From: a virus
Virus record (IMG/VR): IMGVR_UViG_3300036715_000668
Span: 1 to 29,610 of that record
Strand: one strand, 5' to 3'
DNA: 29,610 nt
Positions 1,256 to 9,393 of this stretch are shown piece after piece. The position numbers were made by a program, and so were the translations under genes. The notes beneath the pieces were generated by a model. That model searched no databases. It was given only the letters and a program-made list of their open reading frames with translations, and was not told where the DNA came from. The stretch's first letter is position 1; each line of letters begins with the position of its first letter.

Positions 1256-1396
1256 TTATGCAGTGATTCCGAATTCCATTTCGGTTTTCATCAGCAAAAG
1301 TTGGTCTGCGTAGTATTGCCGTAGATTACGTGGCAGTACTGAGCATACGGTTACGATGTCAGAAGACATCGCTTTAATAAAGAATTTATATAGCAT
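1256..1396 (-). CDS. Very small hypothetical protein (46 aa)
   Basis: ATG at 1396 preceded by a near-perfect SD (AAAGGAGGTGAT, then AACA). It codes for MLYKFFIKAMSSDIVTVCSV and then a helix-like stretch (LPRNLRQYYADQLLLMKTEM), ending in TAA. It overlaps the 3' end of the deoxyribosyltransferase-like gene by 11 bp; the SD lies inside that gene's last codons, so its expression is tied to it. Family unknown. Confidence 0.7.
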   Translation of the reverse strand: MLYKFFIKAMSSDIVTVCSVLPRNLRQYYADQLLLMKTEMEFGITA

Positions 1397-1865
1397 TGTT
1401 ATCACCTCCTTTCAGGTTGATGTGAGAAATGTTACGGAATAGTTGACCACCACTGTTCTCTATGAAGAATAGTACCTGTAAGTTAATAGGTACATGAGGT
1501 AAGTCACCTACATCACGTAAGTCTGTGCGTAGGCCATAGACAGTCTTGCCCATACCTGCAGCATAGCCAAGCTCTGCTACTGTGCCACTATCCGGTTCAG
1601 TACCATCAAGCACTGCCAAGACGCACTGTGCACGGCTAATGTCTAGCCAGTTTTCATGACCTATTTTGAAGGCAAGCTTACTGAATGCTTCCTTCTGCTC
1701 TGCTACTGTAGTAAGAGCATGACATGCCTCAATGTCTTCGCTCCAGTTGATTGCCCATGGGTTGAGCACGCAGTGACCTGCACTGGTGAGTGTGGCAACT
1801 ATCTTAGCAAGATAGTTGATGTGTTCGGGCGAGAAGCCCAGGGGTGAAGCAAGATAAACTAACAT
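1386..1865 (-). CDS. Nucleoside 2-deoxyribosyltransferase-like protein
   Basis: A 159-aa protein with the signature of the nucleoside 2-deoxyribosyltransferase family: the N-terminal strand YLASPLGFS, a central Asp-containing segment (ENWLDISRAQCVLAVLDG, residues 71-88), and the hallmark EPDSGTVAELGYAAGMGK (90-107), whose Glu98 corresponds to the catalytic nucleophile. Family members exchange or hydrolyse the base of deoxynucleosides or nucleoside monophosphates. Start ATG 1865 has SD GGAGG; an upstream in-frame extension to 1910 would run into the ribozyme and is rejected. Hammerhead copy A lies just upstream. With the deaminase at 5408-5905 it suggests deoxynucleotide remodelling. The exact substrate cannot be read from the sequence. 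Confidence 0.85.
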   Translation of the reverse strand: MLVYLASPLGFSPEHINYLAKIVATLTSAGHCVLNPWAINWSEDIEACHALTTVAEQKEAFSKLAFKIGHENWLDISRAQCVLAVLDGTEPDSGTVAELGYAAGMGKTVYGLRTDLRDVGDLPHVPINLQVLFFIENSGGQLFRNISHINLKGGDNNAI

Positions 1866-1887
1866 ACATCCTCCTTTGATTGTTCTG

Positions 1888-1957
1888 TGACTGGCGTCAT
1901 CAGGCCACACGCATCACTGTGTGACGACGCACTATCTCACGACAGTGCGTTTCGCCG
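1888..1957 (-). ncRNA. Type II hammerhead ribozyme, copy A
   Basis: Reading the minus strand from 1956: GGC (stem II 5' strand), GAA, then stem III starting with the A-U pair, nine pairs and a final C-G closing a GUGA tetraloop, the GUC cleavage triplet (C at 1926), a 7-bp stem I (one G-U) with loop AGUGAUGC, then CUGAUGA (1903-1897), one unpaired C and GCC (1895-1893) closing stem II. Predicted cleavage is between 1926 and 1925. Loop bases UGAU can pair with GUCA at 1891-1888. It lies between the stop of the 71-aa gene and the SD of the deoxyribosyltransferase-like gene. The extra base after CUGAUGA departs from the textbook core. Confidence 0.85.
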
Positions 1958-1961
1958 GGTG

Positions 1962-2177
1962 TTACTTGTCGAGGCCGAGCTGGTGGACGGCTATCAAAAA
2001 GGTATCAGCTACACAGCCATAGCCACCGTGATCATTATAAAACTTCAGCTCACGTGCAGCGAAGGCCAGCGTATCCTGCCAGCGAGGCATAGTCTTAGGA
2101 TGCATAATACTAGCGTAAGTCTTATGCATCTGCTGGGCTATACACACTACGTTACTTCTTGCAATTGTTCTTTTCAT
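1962..2177 (-). CDS. Hypothetical early protein (71 aa)
   Basis: ATG at 2177 with SD GGAGG. The protein begins MKRTIARSNVVCIAQQMHKT and appears mostly helical, with a PRWQDTLAFAARELKFY segment like those of small phage proteins in which a conserved Trp precedes an amphipathic helix; no name is justified. It ends (TAA) about five bases before ribozyme A, so cleavage there would leave this message with a hairpin-capped 3' end. The SD is partly paired in a 5-bp stem (2180-2195). Confidence 0.75.
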   Translation of the reverse strand: MKRTIARSNVVCIAQQMHKTYASIMHPKTMPRWQDTLAFAARELKFYNDHGGYGCVADTFLIAVHQLGLDK

Positions 2178-2216
2178 TGTGCACCTCCAAGTGCATTTGT
2201 TAGTTGTTTAGTGGTA

Positions 2217-2265
2217 AATGACTGGCATCATTGAGGCTTATGGCATACCTCCCGCGCCTCTGATC
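2217..2265 (-). other. Vestigial hammerhead-like element
   Basis: The 3' flank shared by the three ribozymes (minus-strand AUGAUGCCAGUCAUU) recurs at 2231-2217, at the same position: downstream of one gene's stop (2274) and upstream of the next SD. The catalytic parts are lost: CUGAUGA reads CUCAAUGA and GGCGAAAC is replaced by GGCGCGGG. Only a 5-bp GAGGC/GCCTC hairpin remains. It appears to be a decayed fourth copy, unlikely to cleave. Confidence 0.5.
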
Positions 2266-2273
2266 CTCCTTTT

Positions 2274-2753
2274 CTAGTTGAGTTGGTCTTGCAGTGAATT
2301 TTTTACAAGAACAATCCGTGTTACTAACTCATGCTTCTTACGCTGAAATTTACCTTTGTAAGCTACCTGAGTTTTATCACTAAATATCACTTTGCTAGTT
2401 TGTGTTATTTCGTACACAAATAGTTCACAGTATGACAAACCAAATCTGTCAGTATCAGTAAGCCATTTCTTTATTGCTGGCATAAATTGTACAATACCAT
2501 GGTTTGTAAATGCAAATGTGTATTCACCATTTTTAAGTCTTGGACAAAATAAGCCTAATTTTATAAATAAACCACCAAGAAGGCTATTGTCATATCGAAG
2601 TCTTGGTATTACAAAGTCCTCATCTTTATATAGGACTTCTATCCTATAGACAGGTTCTCTTATTGGTAGTTGACGCTTAGGTAATGTCAGTCTAGTTAGT
2701 TTCTGTTGTTTCTTTACTGCTTCCATTTTTGGAAGTTCATGAGCTACTTGCAT
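2274..2753 (-). CDS. Hypothetical early protein (159 aa)
   Basis: ATG at 2753 with SD AAGGAG. The first 35 residues are basic and proline-containing (KKQQKLTRLTLPKRQLPIRE) and look flexible; the rest alternates short hydrophobic strands (VYRIEVLYKDEDFVIPRLRY, YTFAFTNHGIVQFM), suggesting a mostly beta fold, and the tail is again basic. No catalytic motif or known family is seen. It ends with TAG, followed at once by the vestigial hammerhead element. Confidence 0.75.
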   Translation of the reverse strand: MQVAHELPKMEAVKKQQKLTRLTLPKRQLPIREPVYRIEVLYKDEDFVIPRLRYDNSLLGGLFIKLGLFCPRLKNGEYTFAFTNHGIVQFMPAIKKWLTDTDRFGLSYCELFVYEITQTSKVIFSDKTQVAYKGKFQRKKHELVTRIVLVKNSLQDQLN

Positions 2754-2771
2754 AGATTCTCCTTATTATGT

Positions 2772-3065
2772 TTAGGTAGAAGGTAGGTCTTCTGCATAGT
2801 AATGTATGCATCCCTTATTAGCCAGTATAGTACATTTAGTTTTCTTTGTAGAGTTCTTCCTTTCATGCCATATCTCAAGGCTATTATATATGGCCATACT
2901 TGTGTCAGCGAATAAAAAGCATTTGCCGGTTGTTTTTTGCCAATATATGTTTACACTGGTGTTACATTCTGTGTAACCATATTGTTTTAATTCCTCGATA
3001 TCACCTCCATTCATTATGCAATAATTAATCGCTTGGATATAGCTGATCTTTACATGTGGTTTCAT
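2772..3065 (-). CDS. Hypothetical early protein (97 aa)
   Basis: ATG at 3065 with SD AAGGAG. The protein starts MKPHVKISYIQAINYCIMNG and contains 'IYWQKTTGKCFLFADTSMAIYNSLEIWHERK' split over residues 41-71, and four cysteines. It ends HYYAEDLPST. Its 3' end and the following leader are duplicated in decayed form at 3338-3390. No family is recognised. The preceding gene's TAG is in frame with this ATG, five codons upstream. Confidence 0.75.
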   Translation of the reverse strand: MKPHVKISYIQAINYCIMNGGDIEELKQYGYTECNTSVNIYWQKTTGKCFLFADTSMAIYNSLEIWHERKNSTKKTKCTILANKGCIHYYAEDLPST

Positions 3066-3077
3066 ATATACTCCTTT

Positions 3078-3230
3078 CTATATCAAGTTGTGTTGTTTAG
3101 CAATACTTATAAGCCTAGCTTCATATCGAGGTTTATAAGTATCAAGCATGTTGCTTTTTTGGACAACCCTTTTAATAGTAGCAAGACGATCAGGACTAAC
3201 CATTAGTAATTTAATAAATATAGCCTCCAT
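3078..3230 (-). CDS. Very small hypothetical protein (50 aa)
   Basis: ATG at 3230 with SD AAGGAGGTG. The protein is MEAIFIKLLMVSPDRLATIK followed by a basic helix-like stretch ending AKQHNLI. Its ATG overlaps the TAA of the 32-aa gene (TAATG), indicating coupling. The 3' half of the gene contains an inverted repeat (3103-3142: ten perfect pairs plus two after a mismatch), so the message may fold there. The family is unknown. Confidence 0.7.
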   Translation of the reverse strand: MEAIFIKLLMVSPDRLATIKRVVQKSNMLDTYKPRYEARLISIAKQHNLI

Positions 3231-3328
3231 TATAGTGCACCTCCTTTGTACATTCTTTTTTCTTTTTTATTGTTCTGAATAATCCTGTCAATTACTGCAC
3301 ATATGATGAAAATGGCCACTTCGTACAT
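3230..3328 (-). CDS. Tiny membrane-like protein (32 aa)
   Basis: ATG at 3328 with SD AAGGAG, coding MYEVAIFIICAVIDRIIQNN followed by a basic tail KKEKRMYKGGAL. A single hydrophobic helix (residues 4-18) with a Lys/Arg-rich C-terminus suggests a single-pass membrane peptide. Its stop overlaps the next start as TAATG, and its last codons carry the SD of that gene, which supports it being real despite its size. Confidence 0.6.
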   Translation of the reverse strand: MYEVAIFIICAVIDRIIQNNKKEKRMYKGGAL

Positions 3329-3337
3329 AGTATGTCT

Positions 3338-3390
3338 CCTTATTATGTTTAGATAGAATGTAGGTCCTCTGTATAGTGATGTATATAGAG
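3338..3390 (-). pseudogene. Duplicated 3'-end remnant of the 97-aa gene
   Basis: This stretch resembles 2762-2812, the end and downstream leader of the 97-aa gene. Translated in the matching frame it gives IHHYTEDLHSI-stop against IHYYAEDLPST-stop, and both copies run on into CATAATAAGGAG, the SD of the next gene. No plausible full-length frame lies upstream, so it looks like the tail of a deleted gene copy left by tandem duplication. Confidence 0.5.
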
Positions 3391-3406
3391 GACAGGCACT
3401 AGATTA

Positions 3407-3454
3407 TCATGCTATTACTCGTCCACAGATAGGACACCAGATAGTTATCTCTAT
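3407..3454 (-). CDS. Tiny CPxCG peptide with possible AUA start
   Basis: A very strong SD (AAAGGAGGTGAT) lies just 3' of ribozyme B but no ATG, GTG or TTG follows at usable distance. The frame after the SD reads ATA (3454), then EITIWCPICGRVIA and TGA. The CPICG knuckle is typical of zinc-binding peptides. Initiation would need AUA (or AUU three bases earlier). The same leader occurs at 3805-3867. This could be a real micro-gene or a decayed start; the evidence is the SD and the motif only. Confidence 0.35.
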   Translation of the reverse strand: MEITIWCPICGRVIA

Positions 3455-3503
3455 AATATCACCTCCTTTCTAGTTAGTTTTCTGAATGACTGGCATCATC
3501 AGG
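3441..3503 (-). repeat. 63-bp perfect direct repeat, copy 1
   Basis: Identical to 3805-3867. It covers the 3' strand of the hammerhead core (CUGAUGA, GCC, GUCA), the linker, the SD and the first codons of the downstream frame. The two ribozymes' variable stems lie outside it and have diverged with pairing preserved. Confidence 0.9.
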
Positions 3504-3556
3504 TATGTAGCATCACCTACATACGACGCTCTGTCTCACGACAGTGCGTTTCGCCA
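3487..3556 (-). ncRNA. Type II hammerhead ribozyme, copy B
   Basis: Minus strand from 3555: GGC, GAA, stem III of nine positions (one A-A mismatch) plus a C-G closing a GUGA tetraloop, the GUC triplet with C at 3525, a perfect 8-bp stem I with loop GUGAUG, CUGAUGA at 3502-3496, one unpaired U, then GCC (3494-3492). Predicted cleavage is between 3525 and 3524. UGAU in loop I can pair with GUCA at 3490-3487. The stems differ in sequence from copies A and C but still pair, which is strong evidence for a conserved RNA. It separates the 60-aa gene (stop 3561) from the tiny CPxCG frame. Confidence 0.88.
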
Positions 3557-3560
3557 TGTG

Positions 3561-3743
3561 CTAATAAATGTTATTAGCGGTGAGTTTGTGGTAAGCTTTT
3601 ATGCGAACAAGCTTTCCAAGTTTACGGCGACGTGCACCATTCCATTTGGAATGGCGACGTGCATCAGCAACACACCATTCTGGGCAACGTTGTGAAACGA
3701 TTGCATCACGGTGAATGCCGATAATGTTGGCAGACTTTGTCAT
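3561..3743 (-). CDS. Small basic hypothetical protein (60 aa)
   Basis: The start is set at ATG 3743 (MTKSANIIGIHRDAIVSQRC), preceded by SD AAGGAGGTGAT. The frame stays open upstream through an ATG at 3806 to a possible AUA start at 3818, so a longer form of 81-85 aa cannot be excluded. The middle is very basic (DARRHSKWNGARRRKLGK), suggesting nucleic-acid binding. Two Cys (RCPEWC) form a CxxxC. The family is unknown. It lies between ribozymes B and C, so its message would be trimmed at both ends. Confidence 0.65.
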   Translation of the reverse strand: MTKSANIIGIHRDAIVSQRCPEWCVADARRHSKWNGARRRKLGKLVRIKAYHKLTANNIY

Positions 3744-3776
3744 GTTAATCACCTCCTTCCTAGTTAGTTTACCATA

Positions 3777-3803
3777 CACGTATTTCAGTAGGACTGAAAC
3801 GTG
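3777..3803 (-). other. Hairpin between leader and 60-aa gene
   Basis: CACG and TTTCAGT pair with ACTGAAA and CGTG around a 3-base loop, with a 2-base bulge. It lies between two SD sites (near 3830 and 3755), within the possible N-terminal extension of the 60-aa protein, and might decide which start is used. Confidence 0.5.
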
Positions 3804-3804
3804 C

Positions 3805-3867
3805 ATAGTTATCTCTATAATATCACCTCCTTTCTAGTTAGTTTTCTGAATGACTGGCATCATCAGG
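3805..3867 (-). repeat. 63-bp perfect direct repeat, copy 2
   Basis: Identical to 3441-3503 and includes the 3' part of ribozyme C and the downstream SD. Here the frame after the SD continues through ATG 3806 into the 60-aa gene. Confidence 0.9.
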
Positions 3868-3910
3868 CTATAGGCGTCACCCTATAACGACGTCTCACGA
3901 CGTTTCGCCA
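3851..3910 (-). ncRNA. Type II hammerhead ribozyme, copy C
   Basis: The most compact copy. Minus strand from 3909: GGC, GAA, a stem III of only ACGU/ACGU plus C-G capped by GUGA, the GUC triplet with C at 3889, an 8-bp stem I (one G-U) with loop GUGACG, CUGAUGA at 3866-3860, one unpaired U, GCC (3858-3856). Predicted cleavage is between 3889 and 3888. UGAC of loop I is exactly complementary to GUCA at 3854-3851, a likely pseudoknot. It lies between the 62-aa gene (stop 3990) and the duplicated leader of the 60-aa gene. Confidence 0.88.
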
Positions 3911-3989
3911 CTGTATTAATTAGGCCGTTCTGTTCCCAGGTGGCTTAAGCCCGGCTAGCCTCCATAGCTAGCAGTTGTGCTAGTAGCTA

Positions 3990-4178
3990 TTACTGCTCCA
4001 GTGTGAAGACAACGCGGGATTCAGTGATATAACCACCGATACCGTCGTTCTCTTTCAAAAGAGCGGCTTTAGCTTCTTCGAGAGTGTCGAAGTCATACGT
4101 CCACTCGCCATCAACTTCATGGCTAATAGGACGTGCGCCTTCCATGTACTCATAGAAGAAAGCACGATATTTGAACAA
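3990..4178 (-). CDS. Small hypothetical protein (62 aa), TTG start
   Basis: No ATG fits; TTG at 4178 lies nine bases after an excellent SD (AAAGGAGGTGA) and opens MFKYRAFFYEYMEGARPISH. The rest (EVDGEWTYDFDTLEEAKAAL) has a strand-then-helix pattern with a 'DTLEEAKAAL' helix seen in many small phage proteins of unknown function. After its stop, 3914-3989 holds palindromic GC-rich patches (GGCTTAAGCC, repeated GCTAGC) before ribozyme C. Confidence 0.75.
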   Translation of the reverse strand: MFKYRAFFYEYMEGARPISHEVDGEWTYDFDTLEEAKAALLKENDGIGGYITESRVVFTLEQ

Positions 4179-4321
4179 GTAGAGTCACCTCCTTTCATGT
4201 TATAATCTTACGAGCAAGTAAGCAAGTAAGTACAGCATATTATATTGACATGCAAATAGCAAGTAGTGAGTTACTACTGCATGCGCCACTTGCACGAGTA
4301 TTTTGCCCGACGCTCATTACT

Positions 4322-4382
4322 ACCCATACCGTGTTGTATCAGTACACCTTCCCTACTTATACCATGTTGTATTAATACCTTC
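4322..4382 (-). repeat. Tandem imperfect repeat with T7-promoter-like layout
   Basis: In the 275-base gap 4200-4474 two units of 28-30 bases lie side by side. On the minus strand they read TAATAC-AACATGG-TATAAGTAGGG (from 4374) and TGATAC-AACACGG-TATGGGTAG (from 4341). TAATAC, seven bases, then TATA matches the spacing of T7-class RNA polymerase promoters, and both point toward the early genes to the left. No phage RNA polymerase gene is in the window, and operator sites are an equally fair reading. The same gap also holds a 9-bp hairpin (4389-4413). Confidence 0.4.
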
Positions 4383-4388
4383 ATATTC

Positions 4389-4413
4389 TTATCTAGCTGT
4401 TTATGCTAGATAA
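4389..4413 (-). other. 9-bp perfect hairpin in intergenic gap
   Basis: TTATCTAGC and GCTAGATAA flank a 7-base loop, 60 bases downstream (minus strand) of the 71-aa membrane protein gene and just upstream of the tandem repeat. No long U-run follows. Confidence 0.55.
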
Positions 4414-4474
4414 TATTGTACCTTATATTATTCTTATTTCTGCGTGTAAGATGCGCAGCCCCTAGATATATAGT

Positions 4475-4690
4475 CTAATTAAAGTCTTTGCCCCATATAG
4501 TTATGCTATGGCTAACAAAGCGTTTGTAGTAGTTACGTTCATCCCATAGACATATGATGGTCAGAACAAAGATGATTACTGCTATTACTGCTGACCACGC
4601 AGCGCAGAGTGGTTCATGTCTAAGTGTAGACACATATGACATGAGGACCGCGATATAACCAGTAATTATTGCATAAATTAAACGTTCCAT
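4475..4690 (-). CDS. Small two-helix membrane protein (71 aa)
   Basis: The start is ATG 4690 with SD AGGAGG; an upstream in-frame extension would read through the duplicated leader. Two hydrophobic segments are clear, about residues 4-20 (LIYAIITGYIAVLMSYV) and 31-49 (AWSAVIAVIIFVLTIICLW), followed by a polar tail. It is likely an inner-membrane protein. The family is not recognised. It shares a nearly identical 55-bp leader with the larger membrane protein gene upstream, so the two may be co-regulated or derived by local duplication. Confidence 0.75.
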   Translation of the reverse strand: MERLIYAIITGYIAVLMSYVSTLRHEPLCAAWSAVIAVIIFVLTIICLWDERNYYKRFVSHSITIWGKDFN

Positions 4691-4745
4691 TATATACCTC
4701 CTAGGTAAGTGTATGCGTGTGCATCCCCACACGCTGGGAAAGAGT
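4691..4745 (-). repeat. 55-bp duplicated leader, copy 1
   Basis: Differs from 5335-5389 at one base. On the minus strand it carries a 7-bp hairpin (GCGTGTG/CACACGC) followed about 15 bases later by SD TAGGAGG and the start codon of the 71-aa membrane protein. Identical leaders before two membrane-protein genes suggest a shared post-transcriptional signal. Confidence 0.9.
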
Positions 4746-4753
4746 AAAAACCG

Positions 4754-5332
4754 TTATGCTGCTTTCTCCATCTTAAAGAGGCCAACTCGTGTATACCCAA
4801 GGAGTCTACATGCACTATGGTATACAAAGATAGTAGCAAGGACACCAAGGATTGGAAGGTTGTTGAGGATTGCTACATAGGTGAAGATAAGGTCAGCAAT
4901 CAACCAACACCATGCCATGCCTGTGAAGCGAAACTTGCTCATCAGCCATGCACCATAGATGGCGATGATAGATGCTGCCCCTCCAACATATGTTGCAGTG
5001 AAGTGGAAGGAAGTAGCAACGCCTAAGAAGATCAGTAACCCAAGGAACCATGTAAGACATCCAGCAGTGAATGCCTTAGCATGCCGATGCTTCACATACA
5101 TTGGGATGGTGAACCATACAAGTCCTAGCTGAGCCGACACTAGGACAAGGTCACCAATGTGAAGACCTAGGGCTATAGTTGTTGCATTACCCATGAGAAA
5201 GACCATAGAGCCTGTCTCATACTGTGCCTCGTGCACTACACCGTGACGATCCTTGCGATTCACGAACATCAATGAACCTGTTGCTGCGAAAGCTGCTGCG
5301 ATGATTGATACGATAGTCAGTGTTGCGTTCAT
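4754..5332 (-). CDS. Multi-pass membrane protein (192 aa)
   Basis: ATG 5332 with SD AGGAGG. The N-terminal hydrophobic helix (LTIVSIIAAAFAATGSLMFV) is followed by about five more membrane segments (near residues 42-60, 62-78, 88-106, 113-129, 139-155 and 157-176). Small-residue-rich helices and short polar loops give it the look of a transporter-like inner-membrane protein; there is a faint resemblance to YgjV/PnuC-type proteins, not enough for a name. A nucleoside or cofactor transporter would suit the nucleotide enzymes nearby, but this is only inference. Confidence 0.8.
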   Translation of the reverse strand: MNATLTIVSIIAAAFAATGSLMFVNRKDRHGVVHEAQYETGSMVFLMGNATTIALGLHIGDLVLVSAQLGLVWFTIPMYVKHRHAKAFTAGCLTWFLGLLIFLGVATSFHFTATYVGGAASIIAIYGAWLMSKFRFTGMAWCWLIADLIFTYVAILNNLPILGVLATIFVYHSACRLLGYTRVGLFKMEKAA

Positions 5333-5334
5333 GG

Positions 5335-5389
5335 TATATACCTCCTAGGTAAGTGTGTGCGTGTGCATCCCCACACGCTGGGAAAGAGT
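5335..5389 (-). repeat. 55-bp duplicated leader, copy 2
   Basis: Pair of 4691-4745 (one mismatch) with the same 7-bp hairpin and SD, here leading the 192-aa membrane protein gene and following the deaminase-like gene. Confidence 0.9.
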
Positions 5390-5407
5390 TAATAGAAATT
5401 ATAGCTA

Positions 5408-5905
5408 TTACAGCATAGTATATGTACCAAGTGCAGGACGGCTGTTGTGTTCGACGAAGGTGTCACCCTCGCGTTCTATGTATACGCCAGAGTGGAGAGA
5501 TGATGCTACAGCCACACCAGCCTCAAGCATCGCTGCTGTGCATGTCTCACAGCAGTACACATGACCAACGATCAGCATCGTTGAGCCGGAGAGGTCGGTC
5601 TCACCGCTATAGAAGGCATTCCACATGGCGTTCCTCTCAGCGTGGAACTCCACGCCTTGACCGCAGATCGTGGCACAAGGCTCATAGGATGTCGTGCCCA
5701 TTGCGACACGAGGACATACCTCAATACCACCAACAGTCATCCAGTTGGCACCGTAGTAGATTTTACCATTGGTAGTGATCAGAGCGGCGTAAACCTTAGC
5801 CTTGATGCAAGGCAACCAACCGTCTGCCATCTCATAGCATGCTGCGATGATGTGGTTACGAACTGCTGCGACGAAAGCGATAATTGCGATGTTGTTAGCG
5901 TACAT
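5408..5905 (-). CDS. dCMP/cytidine deaminase-like zinc enzyme
   Basis: A 165-aa protein with the zinc deaminase signature: FHAERNA (His88, Glu90) supplies the first zinc ligand and the proton-shuttling Glu, and YCCETC (Cys119, Cys122) the other two ligands. The usual PCxxC reads CCxxC here, an oddity at the Pro. The family deaminates dCMP or (deoxy)cytidine to the uracil form, feeding dTTP synthesis. It is the rightmost minus-strand gene (SD AAGGAG, ATG 5905) and would be the first one transcribed from the divergent region. Length fits phage dCMP deaminases; a free-nucleoside deaminase is possible. Confidence 0.82.
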   Translation of the reverse strand: MYANNIAIIAFVAAVRNHIIAACYEMADGWLPCIKAKVYAALITTNGKIYYGANWMTVGGIEVCPRVAMGTTSYEPCATICGQGVEFHAERNAMWNAFYSGETDLSGSTMLIVGHVYCCETCTAAMLEAGVAVASSLHSGVYIEREGDTFVEHNSRPALGTYTML

Positions 5906-5933
5906 GGTAATCTCCTTTAAGAGGTGGTTTGTA

Positions 5934-6078
5934 TCAGAGCAAGCTCTGAGAGGTTCAAAAACATATCATTGACATGAATCTCGTCAATGATCAGACATCG
6001 TGAATCTAGATGTCTGAGGACCTATTTAAATGGTTTGCGTGAGGCCGCAAACCATTTAAACTCCGCCCTTCGGGCGGA
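5934..6078 (-). other. Cluster of five consecutive hairpins
   Basis: Perfect inverted repeats follow one another: 5934-5949 (7 bp), 5965-5991 (9 bp), 5991-6017 (9 bp), 6025-6060 (15 bp, TTTAAATGGTTTGCG and complement) and 6062-6078 (7 bp GC-rich). If transcription starts to the right, they form the 5' leader of the early operon. None is followed by a clear U-run on either strand. Confidence 0.75.
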
Positions 6079-6091
6079 ATAATAAAATTTA

Positions 6092-6145
6092 AAAAATATT
6101 CTAAAATACTTAACATACTACCCATTAAGTATTTTAAATATTTTT
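6092..6145. repeat. Long AT-rich inverted repeat
   Basis: An 11-bp perfect stem (AAAATACTTAA/TTAAGTATTTT, 6103-6113 and 6125-6135) is extended by an 8-bp outer stem (AAAAATAT/ATATTTTT) across a small internal loop. It could be a bidirectional terminator, a cruciform or a DNA-unwinding element; the neighbouring iterons favour the last, weakly. Confidence 0.6.
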
Positions 6146-6302
6146 CATTAAAATATAGAAGGCCCGTTTCAAAAATTTTCATATTTTACCTTTTTGGAAA
6201 TCCAATACATTGATAATCCGCTAGCGTTTGCGCTAAGTCTAAACCGGCCCACAGAATCCTTCGGAATTGCCAACCCCCACCCCCATAAGCCTAGTATACT
6301 AT

Positions 6303-6418
6303 AAGCAAACCTACAAAATCTCCACAAGCAAACCTACAAAATCTCCACAAGCAAACCTACAAAATCTCAATAAGTAAACCTACAAAATCTCCATAAGCAA
6401 GTCCATAGAATCATCCAG
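6303..6418. repeat. 23-bp iterons upstream of terS
   Basis: Four tandem units of AAGCAAACCTACAAAATCTC plus three bases at 6303-6325, 6326-6348, 6349-6371 and 6372-6394, differing by at most a few bases, then a degenerate fifth (6395-6418). The 23-base period is about two helical turns, as expected for sites bound by one protein on one DNA face. Candidate roles are pac/cos-type terminase binding or replication initiation. Confidence 0.85.
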
Positions 6419-6476
6419 AATTACCAGCCCTCCACCACAGAATCCCTAAAATAATCTACAATCTACTTAAAAATAT

Positions 6477-6515
6477 TTGGCCTTACCTATTTCCAAATAC
6501 GATATTATATAGCCC
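6477..6515 (+). promoter_or_regulatory. Possible promoter of a leaderless terS message
   Basis: TATTAT (6503-6508) ends seven bases before the terS ATG, and TTGGCC at 6477 is a poor -35 at 20-base spacing. No SD precedes the ATG, unlike almost every other gene here. A transcript starting at or next to the ATG would explain that. Confidence 0.25.
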
Positions 6516-7001
6516 ATGATTACACTTGAGACAGCACGCAAGATAATGAAAGCGATTGAGACCTATACTGGGCCTATGCAAGCAGATGTGCTCATAGCTA
6601 CAGTTGCCGAACAGACTCTAGAAACACCGGCCACTATCACAAAGGTTATCGAGTTCTTACAAGAGTGTCGTGGGGAATTAAAAATAGTAAGTCCTACACC
6701 AGCCCCAGCCCTACCAGACATAGATGATGCGCCACTGGACCTTATGAATGAACTTACGTATAATTATAAGATAGCAAAACGTATACTCCAACAAGGACTT
6801 GTACAAGACCAATCTACAGATCCTGAGGAAACACGTAAGTCGCTAAGGACGATCTCAACATTCATGGAGCAGGCGTTAAAGCTTCAAGAGCGTTTATACA
6901 ATACCCAACAGATGCAAAAGTTCCAAGAAGCAGTCCTCGATACCATAGCTACTGTTGACCCCGTCTATCGGGATGCTATAATTATGAGGATGCTAGAGTG
7001 A
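6516..7001 (+). CDS. terS: Terminase small subunit (putative)
   Basis: A 161-aa protein directly before the large terminase. Residues 1-55 (ARKIMKAIETYTGPMQADVL ...) look like a winged-helix DNA-binding domain; a proline-rich linker (SPTPAPALPDIDD) follows, then helical segments including a long amphipathic helix (SLRTISTFMEQALKLQERLY) of the sort that mediates oligomer formation. Small terminases bind the packaging site and hand DNA to the large subunit. The call rests on position, size and domain order. It has no SD. Its TGA overlaps the GTG start of terL (GTGA). Confidence 0.75.
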   Translation: MITLETARKIMKAIETYTGPMQADVLIATVAEQTLETPATITKVIEFLQECRGELKIVSPTPAPALPDIDDAPLDLMNELTYNYKIAKRILQQGLVQDQSTDPEETRKSLRTISTFMEQALKLQERLYNTQQMQKFQEAVLDTIATVDPVYRDAIIMRMLE

Positions 7002-8704
7002 TAAAAGATACTGAGTATGGTCTAGCATTTCAAGAAATACTTAGAATAAAGTACGGTGATAACTCACAGCAGTCTTACTCTGACTGGATATGTGAGAATA
7101 CCTTGCTTAAAGCTAAGAAATATTCATTTCGGGATCATGAATATCAATTCTCCCCGGTAGACGATCCTGCCCGTATATTGGTGATGGAGAAATGCGCTCA
7201 GATGGGTTTTACTGAGTGCTTCTTTAGATGGATGCTAGCATTCCTAGTTAAGCATCAAGGCTCACAGGGGATCTTCACTCAACCCACTGATAGAGACATG
7301 AGCACATTTGCCAAAAGCCGTGCTGATGTTATTATGGAAGAATGTCCAGTAGTTAAGAGGCTTGGCACAGGAGGGGTTGATAGTGTCCAACTTAAAAGAA
7401 TCGGTAGCTCCTTCCTCAACCTTAGAGGCACGTTCGGTTCCCGAGCTGCTATCTCTGTACCGTCAGACGCAAACAACTATGACGAGGTTAACTTCTCTAA
7501 TCCTCGGGTACTCAATCAATACAAGTCACGATTACAACACTCTGCTTATAAGTATGAAAGATACATTAGTACGCCTACAATTCCAAATTATGGAGTTAGT
7601 GAACTTTACAACCGATCGGATCGTAAGCGACTCTTTATCAAATGTAACCACTGTGGAGAACAACAAACCTTAGATTGGCCCACAAGTATATTTTTTAAAG
7701 AGCACTCTACTGGTAAAGTAATACCACATAATGATGAGTTTATTGAACTATATATTGAGAAAGAATATGAGTATCAACCATTCATTGGCTGTAAAAAATG
7801 CCATAGAGAGCTAGATAGAAGTTGGCAGTACCGTGAGTGGGTTGCAGAGTTCCCAGAGCGTAATAGAGACCCTGATAGTGGTATTAGTGGGTATCATATC
7901 AATCAACTTGACGCTACTTATATTAGTGCGCTAGAGATTGTTAGAGCTTCTGATAAACGGCTGGATGGCTATAAGAAGATAGAAGACTTCTATAACTTTG
8001 TATTGGCCCTGCCGTATGAAGGTGGTGACTCTGTAAAGATTACAGAAGCCTCTAAGCAGGTCGCTACTATTCCACTGGCGATGCCTGATTCTGGTTCTGG
8101 TTGTTATCTAGGTGTAGACTTAGGTTCTACCTGTCATATAGTTATTATTAAAGATATTTACTTACCAACAAAGATAGGGCCTACTCCGGTAGTTATTGCT
8201 GCATATAGAGTAAGCAAAGATGTGCTTGAGGAAAGACTACCTGAGTTCATTAAGAAGTATGGTTGCTTATTTGTTGTATCGGATGCTCAGCCTTATACAA
8301 TTACCGTTGAGAAAATTGCTAAGATGCATTTGAACCGTATGAGTGTATGCTTTTTCGGCGGTAAGAAATCTTATAGTCTTACAAGTGATTATATAAATGT
8401 GACAGCTAACCGTACCAATGCACTTGATGAGGTAACAGATAGTATACCTGTAGGTAATACTTTAGTTGCTTCTGGTATACCGGATTATGATATACTCTGG
8501 CAGCATATGAAGAATCTTGTTAAGGTTAAAGCTGAAGACGATGATGGTTCTGAGTACTATGAGTATGTTAAAGTAGGGGAGGATCACTATGGCTATGCTT
8601 TATGTTATGCTTTACTAGCTAGAAAAATATTCCTGGAGACTAGACCAAATGCTAAAGAGTGTAGTGCACCGGTAAACATTACAGGGACAGCGGTGTCTAT
8701 ATGA
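6998..8704 (+). CDS. terL: Terminase large subunit, lambda gpA-like
   Basis: A 568-aa packaging motor. The N-terminal ATPase has a deviant Walker A MEKCAQMGFTE (63-73, like the KSARxGxSK loop of lambda gpA) and a Walker B-type YDEVNF (161-166). A zinc-ribbon-like insert with CNHC (216-219) and CKKC (265-268) is typical of the gpA family. The nuclease domain shows GVDLG (372-376), VVSDAQ (426-431) and DHYGYALCY (529-537), which supply the acidic and His residues of an RNase H-like metal site. It cuts concatemers and drives DNA into the prohead. The start is GTG overlapping terS; the stop overlaps the next gene. Confidence 0.93.
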   Translation: MIKDTEYGLAFQEILRIKYGDNSQQSYSDWICENTLLKAKKYSFRDHEYQFSPVDDPARILVMEKCAQMGFTECFFRWMLAFLVKHQGSQGIFTQPTDRDMSTFAKSRADVIMEECPVVKRLGTGGVDSVQLKRIGSSFLNLRGTFGSRAAISVPSDANNYDEVNFSNPRVLNQYKSRLQHSAYKYERYISTPTIPNYGVSELYNRSDRKRLFIKCNHCGEQQTLDWPTSIFFKEHSTGKVIPHNDEFIELYIEKEYEYQPFIGCKKCHRELDRSWQYREWVAEFPERNRDPDSGISGYHINQLDATYISALEIVRASDKRLDGYKKIEDFYNFVLALPYEGGDSVKITEASKQVATIPLAMPDSGSGCYLGVDLGSTCHIVIIKDIYLPTKIGPTPVVIAAYRVSKDVLEERLPEFIKKYGCLFVVSDAQPYTITVEKIAKMHLNRMSVCFFGGKKSYSLTSDYINVTANRTNALDEVTDSIPVGNTLVASGIPDYDILWQHMKNLVKVKAEDDDGSEYYEYVKVGEDHYGYALCYALLARKIFLETRPNAKECSAPVNITGTAVSI

Positions 8705-9393
8705 GCATTAAAGTAACTCAATTTTCTATTAAGTCTGAAGTAGACTCCTTAGTAGTGCAGCTAAGCTTTGATATTACTGGCGCTACAGGTGAAGTAAGCT
8801 ATTCTATTTCTGAAGATCCAGCAAAGTTTATTTGGCAGTCATATAGGCCTATAGAATATAAGTTTAGTCTTAGGGGTATTCATACCTTATACTTAACTGT
8901 AAAAGATACAAATAGTATATCTGATACTATATCTGCCCAATGTCAACTAATAACTTCCTTAAATGGAAATGAAGTATTACAACAGCATATAGCTACACAG
9001 ACTATATCTGTAAATGCTTTAAAAACCTTTATACTAGATACTCCAGCCTTAGAGACTAGTATAATTACATCTGATTCTATGCTTATAATGACAGCCGCTA
9101 TACCACTTAGTGGCCATAGAGCTGTAGCACAAGTTAACGGTTTGGCAAACTATGGTGTAAATGTAATAGGTATAACTAGAGATGCATGTCTTGCAGGTAG
9201 TGAAGTTGTAGTACAGTTTAGGTCTACTATGGAAGAGCCTAGTTGGAATTGGGACATAGATCTTCCAATATATTCTACTAGTATGGGAGTTTTAACTCAA
9301 GTAGTACCTGATAGTGGTATACTACAAAGGGTAGCAATGCCTTTGTCTAAGTCTAAAATTCTAATAGATATTAAAGAACCAATCCAACTATAA
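8701..9393 (+). CDS. Putative virion surface/fibre-associated protein
   Basis: A 230-aa protein overlapping terL by ATGA. Residues 1-90 have the alternating pattern of an Ig/PKD-like beta domain (VVQLSFDITGATGEVSYSIS, FSLRGIHTLYLTVKD). The C-terminal half (residues 140-215: AQVNGLANYGVNVIGITRDA ...) resembles beta domains of phage decoration or collar proteins and the next gene's product. No enzyme motif is seen. A structural role is inferred from domain style and neighbours. Its place between terminase and portal is unusual. Confidence 0.5.
   Translation: MSIKVTQFSIKSEVDSLVVQLSFDITGATGEVSYSISEDPAKFIWQSYRPIEYKFSLRGIHTLYLTVKDTNSISDTISAQCQLITSLNGNEVLQQHIATQTISVNALKTFILDTPALETSIITSDSMLIMTAAIPLSGHRAVAQVNGLANYGVNVIGITRDACLAGSEVVVQFRSTMEEPSWNWDIDLPIYSTSMGVLTQVVPDSGILQRVAMPLSKSKILIDIKEPIQL

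Follow-up and report, generated by a model that had tools for sequence, protein, structure and literature searches.

Type II hammerhead ribozymes and other recurrent leader RNAs in the leftward operon of a phage contig

Which RNA elements occupy the gaps between the small leftward genes of a phage, and do they cut the message that carries them? We address this question for IMG/VR virus record IMGVR_UViG_3300036715_000668, a virus contig of 29.6 kb from an uncultured bacteriophage (hereafter the window, meaning the whole stretch from position 1 to 29,610), whose minus strand holds three elements named A, B and C. Sequence and structure comparisons strongly support their identity as canonical type II hammerhead ribozymes. 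That they are genuine hammerheads lying in a leftward polycistronic message and cutting it into shorter units we consider likely. Their locations and model scores are as follows.

Positions 1887 to 1956, minus strand: hammerhead A, type II (RF02276 41.8 bits; R2 53.2 bits, E 9.8e-14).
Positions 3486 to 3555, minus strand: hammerhead B, type II (RF02276 32.6 bits, E 1.1e-6; R2 63.1 bits, E 1.1e-16).
Positions 3850 to 3909, minus strand: hammerhead C, type II (R2 62.6 bits, E 1.5e-16; also recognized by its fold).

RF02276 is the Rfam type II hammerhead model, with a gathering cut-off of 37 bits. R2 is an out-of-clade covariance model; its 16 source hammerheads come from other phages, none from the phage group studied here. 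An earlier first-pass annotation of this DNA had placed three type II hammerheads at these sites, and R2 recovers all of them. The Rfam model, to which that annotation had looked for confirmation, finds A but leaves B under the cut-off and does not report C. This is because the loop I and tail sequences read GUGAY and GUCAY rather than the Rfam consensus UGG and CCA. A chance match is excluded by the R2 scores (E values of 1e-13 to 1e-16) and by covariation. In addition, the minus strand contains the exact core GGCGAAAC at just three places, A, B and C, and these are also the only three sites of CTGATGANGCC in the whole window.

All three copies have an intact catalytic core (GAAA, CUGAUGA and GUC, where the family calls for GAAA, CUGANGA and NUH), and each shows the family architecture of an open stem II with stems I and III closed by loops. 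Element A combines a GGC/GCC stem II with a stem III of 10 bp capped by a GUGA loop, the GUC triplet, a stem I of 7 bp and CUGAUGA-C-GCC. In B, stem III has 9 bp and a single A.A mismatch, and in C it has 5 bp, each capped by a GUGA loop; stem I measures 8 bp in both. This re-derived anatomy agrees with the earlier description of stems, tetraloops and mismatch. Cleavage is predicted between 1926 and 1925 in A, between 3525 and 3524 in B and between 3889 and 3888 in C, so the 5' ends proposed before (1925, 3524 and 3888) fit the sequence. What had gone unmentioned is that in all three copies loop I (GUGAY) pairs with the 3' tail (GUCAY) in a 5-bp pseudoknot. Such a pseudoknot, common in the family though not obligatory, spans 4 bp or more in 49 of 64 type II elements, against 33.7 when tails are swapped.

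Related phages allow a stricter look at the pairing. A search of IMG/VR with TerL yields L021, a contig that is nearly identical, together with five relatives whose identity is 67-84%. Hammerheads are found in L026 (three), L025 (two, one truncated by the contig end), L027 (one) and L028 (one), where TerL identity is 67-81%. They lie in the same operon and some stand beside orthologous genes: B and L025-2 are both downstream of orthologous genes, L026-2 lies ahead of the gene orthologous to the one that follows B, and the genes preceded by L026-3 and by the L028 hammerhead are orthologous to each other. Many unrelated phages contain further copies. Nine complete copies from five phages (the window and these four relatives) were aligned on R2. 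Across them 94.9% of pair cells are kept, compared to 21-43% in slid controls, although an alignment fitted to the model structure somewhat favours pairing. Both sides have changed in 15 of 22 pairs, and all eight pairs of stem I show compensatory changes. The loop I-tail pseudoknot, which lies outside that model, is kept at 93%, and one of its pairs exchanges A-U for G-C. These results support selection on the pairing of A, B and C. The first-pass annotation had read the differing stems of the three copies as covariation in a selected RNA; this view extends well to the relatives.

Structural genes (terminase, portal, major head protein and endolysin) occupy the plus strand, and the first 6 kb contain small minus-strand genes, among them nucleoside 2-deoxyribosyltransferase-like and dCMP-deaminase-like ones. 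From this layout we infer that the minus-strand region is early. The features that bear on the ribozymes are the following.

Positions 1386 to 1865, minus strand: nucleoside 2-deoxyribosyltransferase-like gene (Pfam PF05014, E 1.6e-23), directly downstream of A.
Positions 1962 to 2177, minus strand: gene of unknown function (71 amino acids), directly upstream of A, its stop 5 nt before the ribozyme.
Positions 3230 to 3328, minus strand: small gene (MYEVA..) downstream of B; its L026 orthologue is directly preceded by a hammerhead.
Positions 3561 to 3806, minus strand: gene between C and B, of 81 amino acids, or 60 from an internal ATG; its L025 orthologue also precedes a hammerhead.
Positions 6100 to 6190, minus strand: leader block GAAAWTTTTTGAAACGGGCC..AAAATACTTAATG heading the leftward operon, also found in L025, L026, L027 and L028; a candidate early promoter or leader region.

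The genes around the hammerheads are co-oriented, and A, B and C lie between them on the coding strand. No terminator-like site is seen on the minus strand between positions 1 and 5900. Together with the conservation of the leader block in five phages this is consistent with a single transcript. A promoter scan gives promoter-like matches that are no commoner than in shuffled sequence. The positional pattern becomes clear from a survey of 66 type II hammerheads, drawn from this group and from many further phages. In 45 of the 66 the ribozyme is preceded at -1 to +5 nt by a stop codon (4% for random positions), and in 50 a Shine-Dalgarno (SD) sequence plus start is found 12-50 nt downstream of the core (12.5% for random positions). 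Therefore the ribozyme fills the gap between the stop and the ribosome site. Genome compactness alone could explain such tight spacing.

Taken together, a role in message processing is plausible, as proposed already in 2011 for other phages (PMC3088659). A, B and C would be transcribed within one leftward message of the minus strand. Each would fold with stem II (GGC/GCC), closed stems III and I and the loop I-tail pseudoknot, and would cut after GUC. The upstream unit would then carry the stem III hairpin and a 2',3'-cyclic phosphate at its 3' end. The downstream unit would start with the stem I hairpin, bearing a 5'-OH, a few tens of nucleotides ahead of the following ribosome site. In the early region of T7, RNase III sites punctuate the polycistronic early message into hairpin-ended units. 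Cutting by A, B and C might likewise uncouple expression and decay of neighbouring genes, with the difference that T7 RNA is cut by a protein enzyme whereas the RNA of the window is predicted to cut itself. What the sequences show directly is the fold, the covariation, the position and the recurrence in related phages; the cut, its timing and its effect on expression are predictions of this account.

The ribozymes of this group are also mosaics. Among ten elements (45 pairs) the identities of stem III and stem I are uncorrelated (-0.13). L025-2 and the L027 copy are 100% identical in stem I and 59% in stem III, and A and L025-1 show the same tendency (95% and 56%). The reverse is seen for L026-3 and the L028 copy (stem III 100%, stem I 59%) and for A and B (stem III 92%, stem I 55%). 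The simplest reading of these halves would be recombination inside the ribozyme near the cut site. The idea that the halves travel with gene cassettes, stem III going with the gene before the ribozyme and stem I with the gene after it, finds no support, as shared stems ignore orthologous neighbours. Incomplete elements are present as well. On the minus strand of L026 a half-hammerhead (4938-4870) has GGCGAAA, stem III and GUC but lacks stem I and CUGAUGA; an SD comes immediately after GUC. A shorter relic, GACGAAACAGAGUGGCU, lies at about 4617. The window contains one such remnant.

Positions 2207 to 2261, minus strand: relic D, with the AUGAUGCCAGUCAUU tail kept, the core UCAAUGA and no stem III half (model R1 10.5 bits, E 0.77; R2 11.1 bits, E 0.33).

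Relic D is probably inactive. We considered a fourth active hammerhead at 2261-2207 and dismissed it, given E values of 0.33-0.77 and UCAAUGA in place of CUGAUGA.

Hammerheads are not the only recurrent elements between these genes. At least eight others (E2 to E9) occupy stop-to-SD gaps in this phage group, and those located are listed here.

Positions 5352 to 5390, minus strand: E2, copy 1, between stop and SD.
Positions 4708 to 4746, minus strand: E2, copy 2, upstream of the gene at 4475-4690.
L027 positions 7133, 6710, 6030, 5602, 2767 and 1993, minus strand: six copies of E2.
Window position 118 (minus strand), L022 7317, L026 5632 and 2342, L027 about 7725, L028 2679: E3.
Window position 452 (minus strand), L021 387, L027 8093 and 3798: E4.
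Window position 4461, L026 3737 and 213: E5, a motif upstream of start codons of unrelated genes.
L021 728, L027 4835: E7, likewise upstream of start codons of unrelated genes.
L026 1382 and 1178, L028 3542: E8, in the same kind of position.
L028 3989 and 1235: E9, again before start codons of unrelated genes.

E2 follows the pattern CUCUUUCCCA-[7-bp stem]-GGGAUG, which can also be given as UUUCCCA-hairpin-GGGAUG, and may form an H-type pseudoknot. Four pairs of its stem have changed on both sides, the possible UCCC/GGGA pseudoknot is invariant, and within IMG/VR the pattern is confined to this phage group. E3 is a hairpin with a variable stem of about 4-6 bp and the conserved loop AYGACNNNAAACU. 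It usually stands directly upstream of an SD, and directly before a hammerhead in L025 and L022. E4 consists of GGUCAGAA-[variable-sequence hairpin]-AGUA..CAUGACC, is closed by GGUCA/UGACC and also precedes an SD. None of E2, E3, E4 and the other leader elements matches Rfam; in L027, with its six E2 copies, the leader elements stay unmatched up to an E value of 1. E2 to E4 are of interest as possible self-cleaving RNAs because searches beside hammerhead-associated genes have yielded new self-cleaving motifs before (2017 review, PMC6155905). That nearly every gap of the early operon would hold such interchangeable structured modules, with at least one of E2, E3 and E4 being an undescribed self-cleaving or processing RNA, is in our estimate a long shot.

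Several observations weigh against cutting of the message by A, B and C. The first-pass annotation had each element directly after a stop and upstream of the next SD. The former applies to A and B (5 nt each) but not to C, where 80 nt separate the ribozyme from the stop before it, and the latter fails after B and C, where the genes are short or non-ATG frames with no plain SD-ATG start. According to Perreault et al. (PMC3088659), 4 of 18 hammerheads matching the consensus were inactive. Finally, in the minimum free energy (MFE) folds predicted for A, B, C, L025-1 and L026-2, CUGAUGA is paired to the tail that follows it and the active core does not form. This core-tail hairpin could be a refold after cleavage, a competing inactive fold or an artefact of the folding program, which cannot model pseudoknots. 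If real, it might mean that the ribozymes of this phage group are switched, either by an inactive competing fold or by a post-cleavage 5' hairpin. The hairpin recurs in these five folds despite differing tails, it exceeds 30 of 30 tail shuffles for B and C, and in L013 a variable core base and the tail change together. As a general feature of type II hammerheads we discarded it, since mean core-tail pairing over 64 elements is 3.2 against 2.9 in shuffles; part of this pairing comes free because the pseudoknot tail and the core share UGA. Only a clade-specific switch is left, and this we regard as highly improbable.

Two further explanations were weighed. The elements might mainly be structured 5' leaders that act on mRNA stability or translation, with cutting incidental and the hammerhead one of several interchangeable modules between stop and SD. 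This would account for the gene at 4475-4690, which has E2 upstream in the window and a hammerhead upstream of its L027 orthologue, as well as for E2 to E9 in the same niche and the L026 half element that retains stem III only. A mere hairpin has no need of a catalytic core, however, and apart from the relics the core is intact in all copies of the clade, which leaves this explanation rather unlikely. Alternatively, the hammerheads may persist mainly as joints for the exchange of gene cassettes, their short cores guiding recombination and RNA processing being secondary. The independent assortment of stem III and stem I halves and the half-elements in L026 and the window would suit such joints, whereas compensatory changes in stem I and the pseudoknot would be needless for them, and shared stems do not track the flanking orthologous genes. 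We therefore hold it to be improbable.

Cutting of the leftward message by A, B and C also has precedents. Perreault et al. 2011 (PMC3088659) describe clustered hammerheads flanking prophage genes and propose that they process long phage transcripts; three clusters cleaved in vitro and one in E. coli. According to a 2017 review, hammerheads often lie close together, flank small genes and are linked to phages, their role being unsettled (PMC6155905). Pattern scans of IMG/VR and GTDB genomes turned up many type II hammerheads, and of 33 hammerhead contigs examined with covariance models 20 carry at least two within the sequence available for them. The richest case to mention is L015 (IMGVR_UViG_2974780860_000001), with nine type II hammerheads in about 5.6 kb (3407-9020, minus strand) spaced by roughly 0.2-1.6 kb; in some of them the core reads CUGACGA or the stem II pairs are exchanged (GCC/GGC, GUC/GAC). 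Several hammerheads each are also found in the cultured Sphingomonas sp. NFR15 and Haloactinopolyspora alba DSM 45211. With the published clusters (PMC3088659) and these counts, the earlier suggestion that several self-cleaving ribozymes in one phage region are uncommon has to be given up. For the same reasons the arrangement in the window falls within a known kind: three-hammerhead clusters are known since 2011, and the mosaic make-up and the neighbouring structured RNAs are the new details, neither mosaic halves nor co-occurring non-hammerhead leader elements being described in the main-text passages of that paper.

Individual systems described in PMC3088659 can be compared with the window. 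A, B and C share with RF02276 the core, the closed stems I and III, a stem II that is open and 2-3 bp long, NUH and the loop I-tail pseudoknot, but differ from it in a stem II offset by one bulged base after CUGAUGA. The triple cluster of Agrobacterium tumefaciens and the tandem clusters of Clostridium scindens and Azorhizobium caulinodans likewise combine several hammerheads with co-oriented phage genes and a proposed processing role, though in another phage lineage and with other genes. In Halovirus HF1/HF2 a hammerhead also lies upstream of an early gene, and the early transcript starts within 3 nt of the cut site; unlike the window, this archaeal virus has a single hammerhead with a variant core.

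Interest in this locus is heightened by its mosaic ribozymes and by leader elements, hitherto undescribed, that trade places with hammerheads. This phage group offers repeated hammerheads with intact cores, natural half-ribozymes, and close relatives in which one and the same gene is preceded either by a hammerhead or by another RNA element. A comparison of such cases would tell whether selection keeps the cutting itself or only a structured leader.

Some observations concern the flanks of the ribozymes and the wider genome. The 3' flanks of B and C (3486-3422 and 3850-3786, minus strand; AGUCAUUCAGAAAACUAACUAGAAAGGAGGUGAUAUUAUAGAGAUAACUAU) are evidently a duplication, because about 60 nt are almost identical before the sequences run into different reading frames, and an AUU start is possible after the shared flank. 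Among GenBank phages no relative of the window is found at the DNA level. The nearest TerL proteins, about 30% identical, belong to Vibrio phages of 77-85 kb, so that the genome is probably larger than the window. No type II hammerhead is present in Vibrio phage SHOU24, Achromobacter phage JWF or Caulobacter phage Seuss, whose TerL or capsid similarity is distant. Where the leftward operon and the terminase genes diverge, the intergenic region holds tandem repeats both in the window (6303-6400, 4.3 copies of a 23-bp unit) and in L027 (9141-9397, 6.1 copies of a 35-bp unit), and the two repeat sequences are unrelated.

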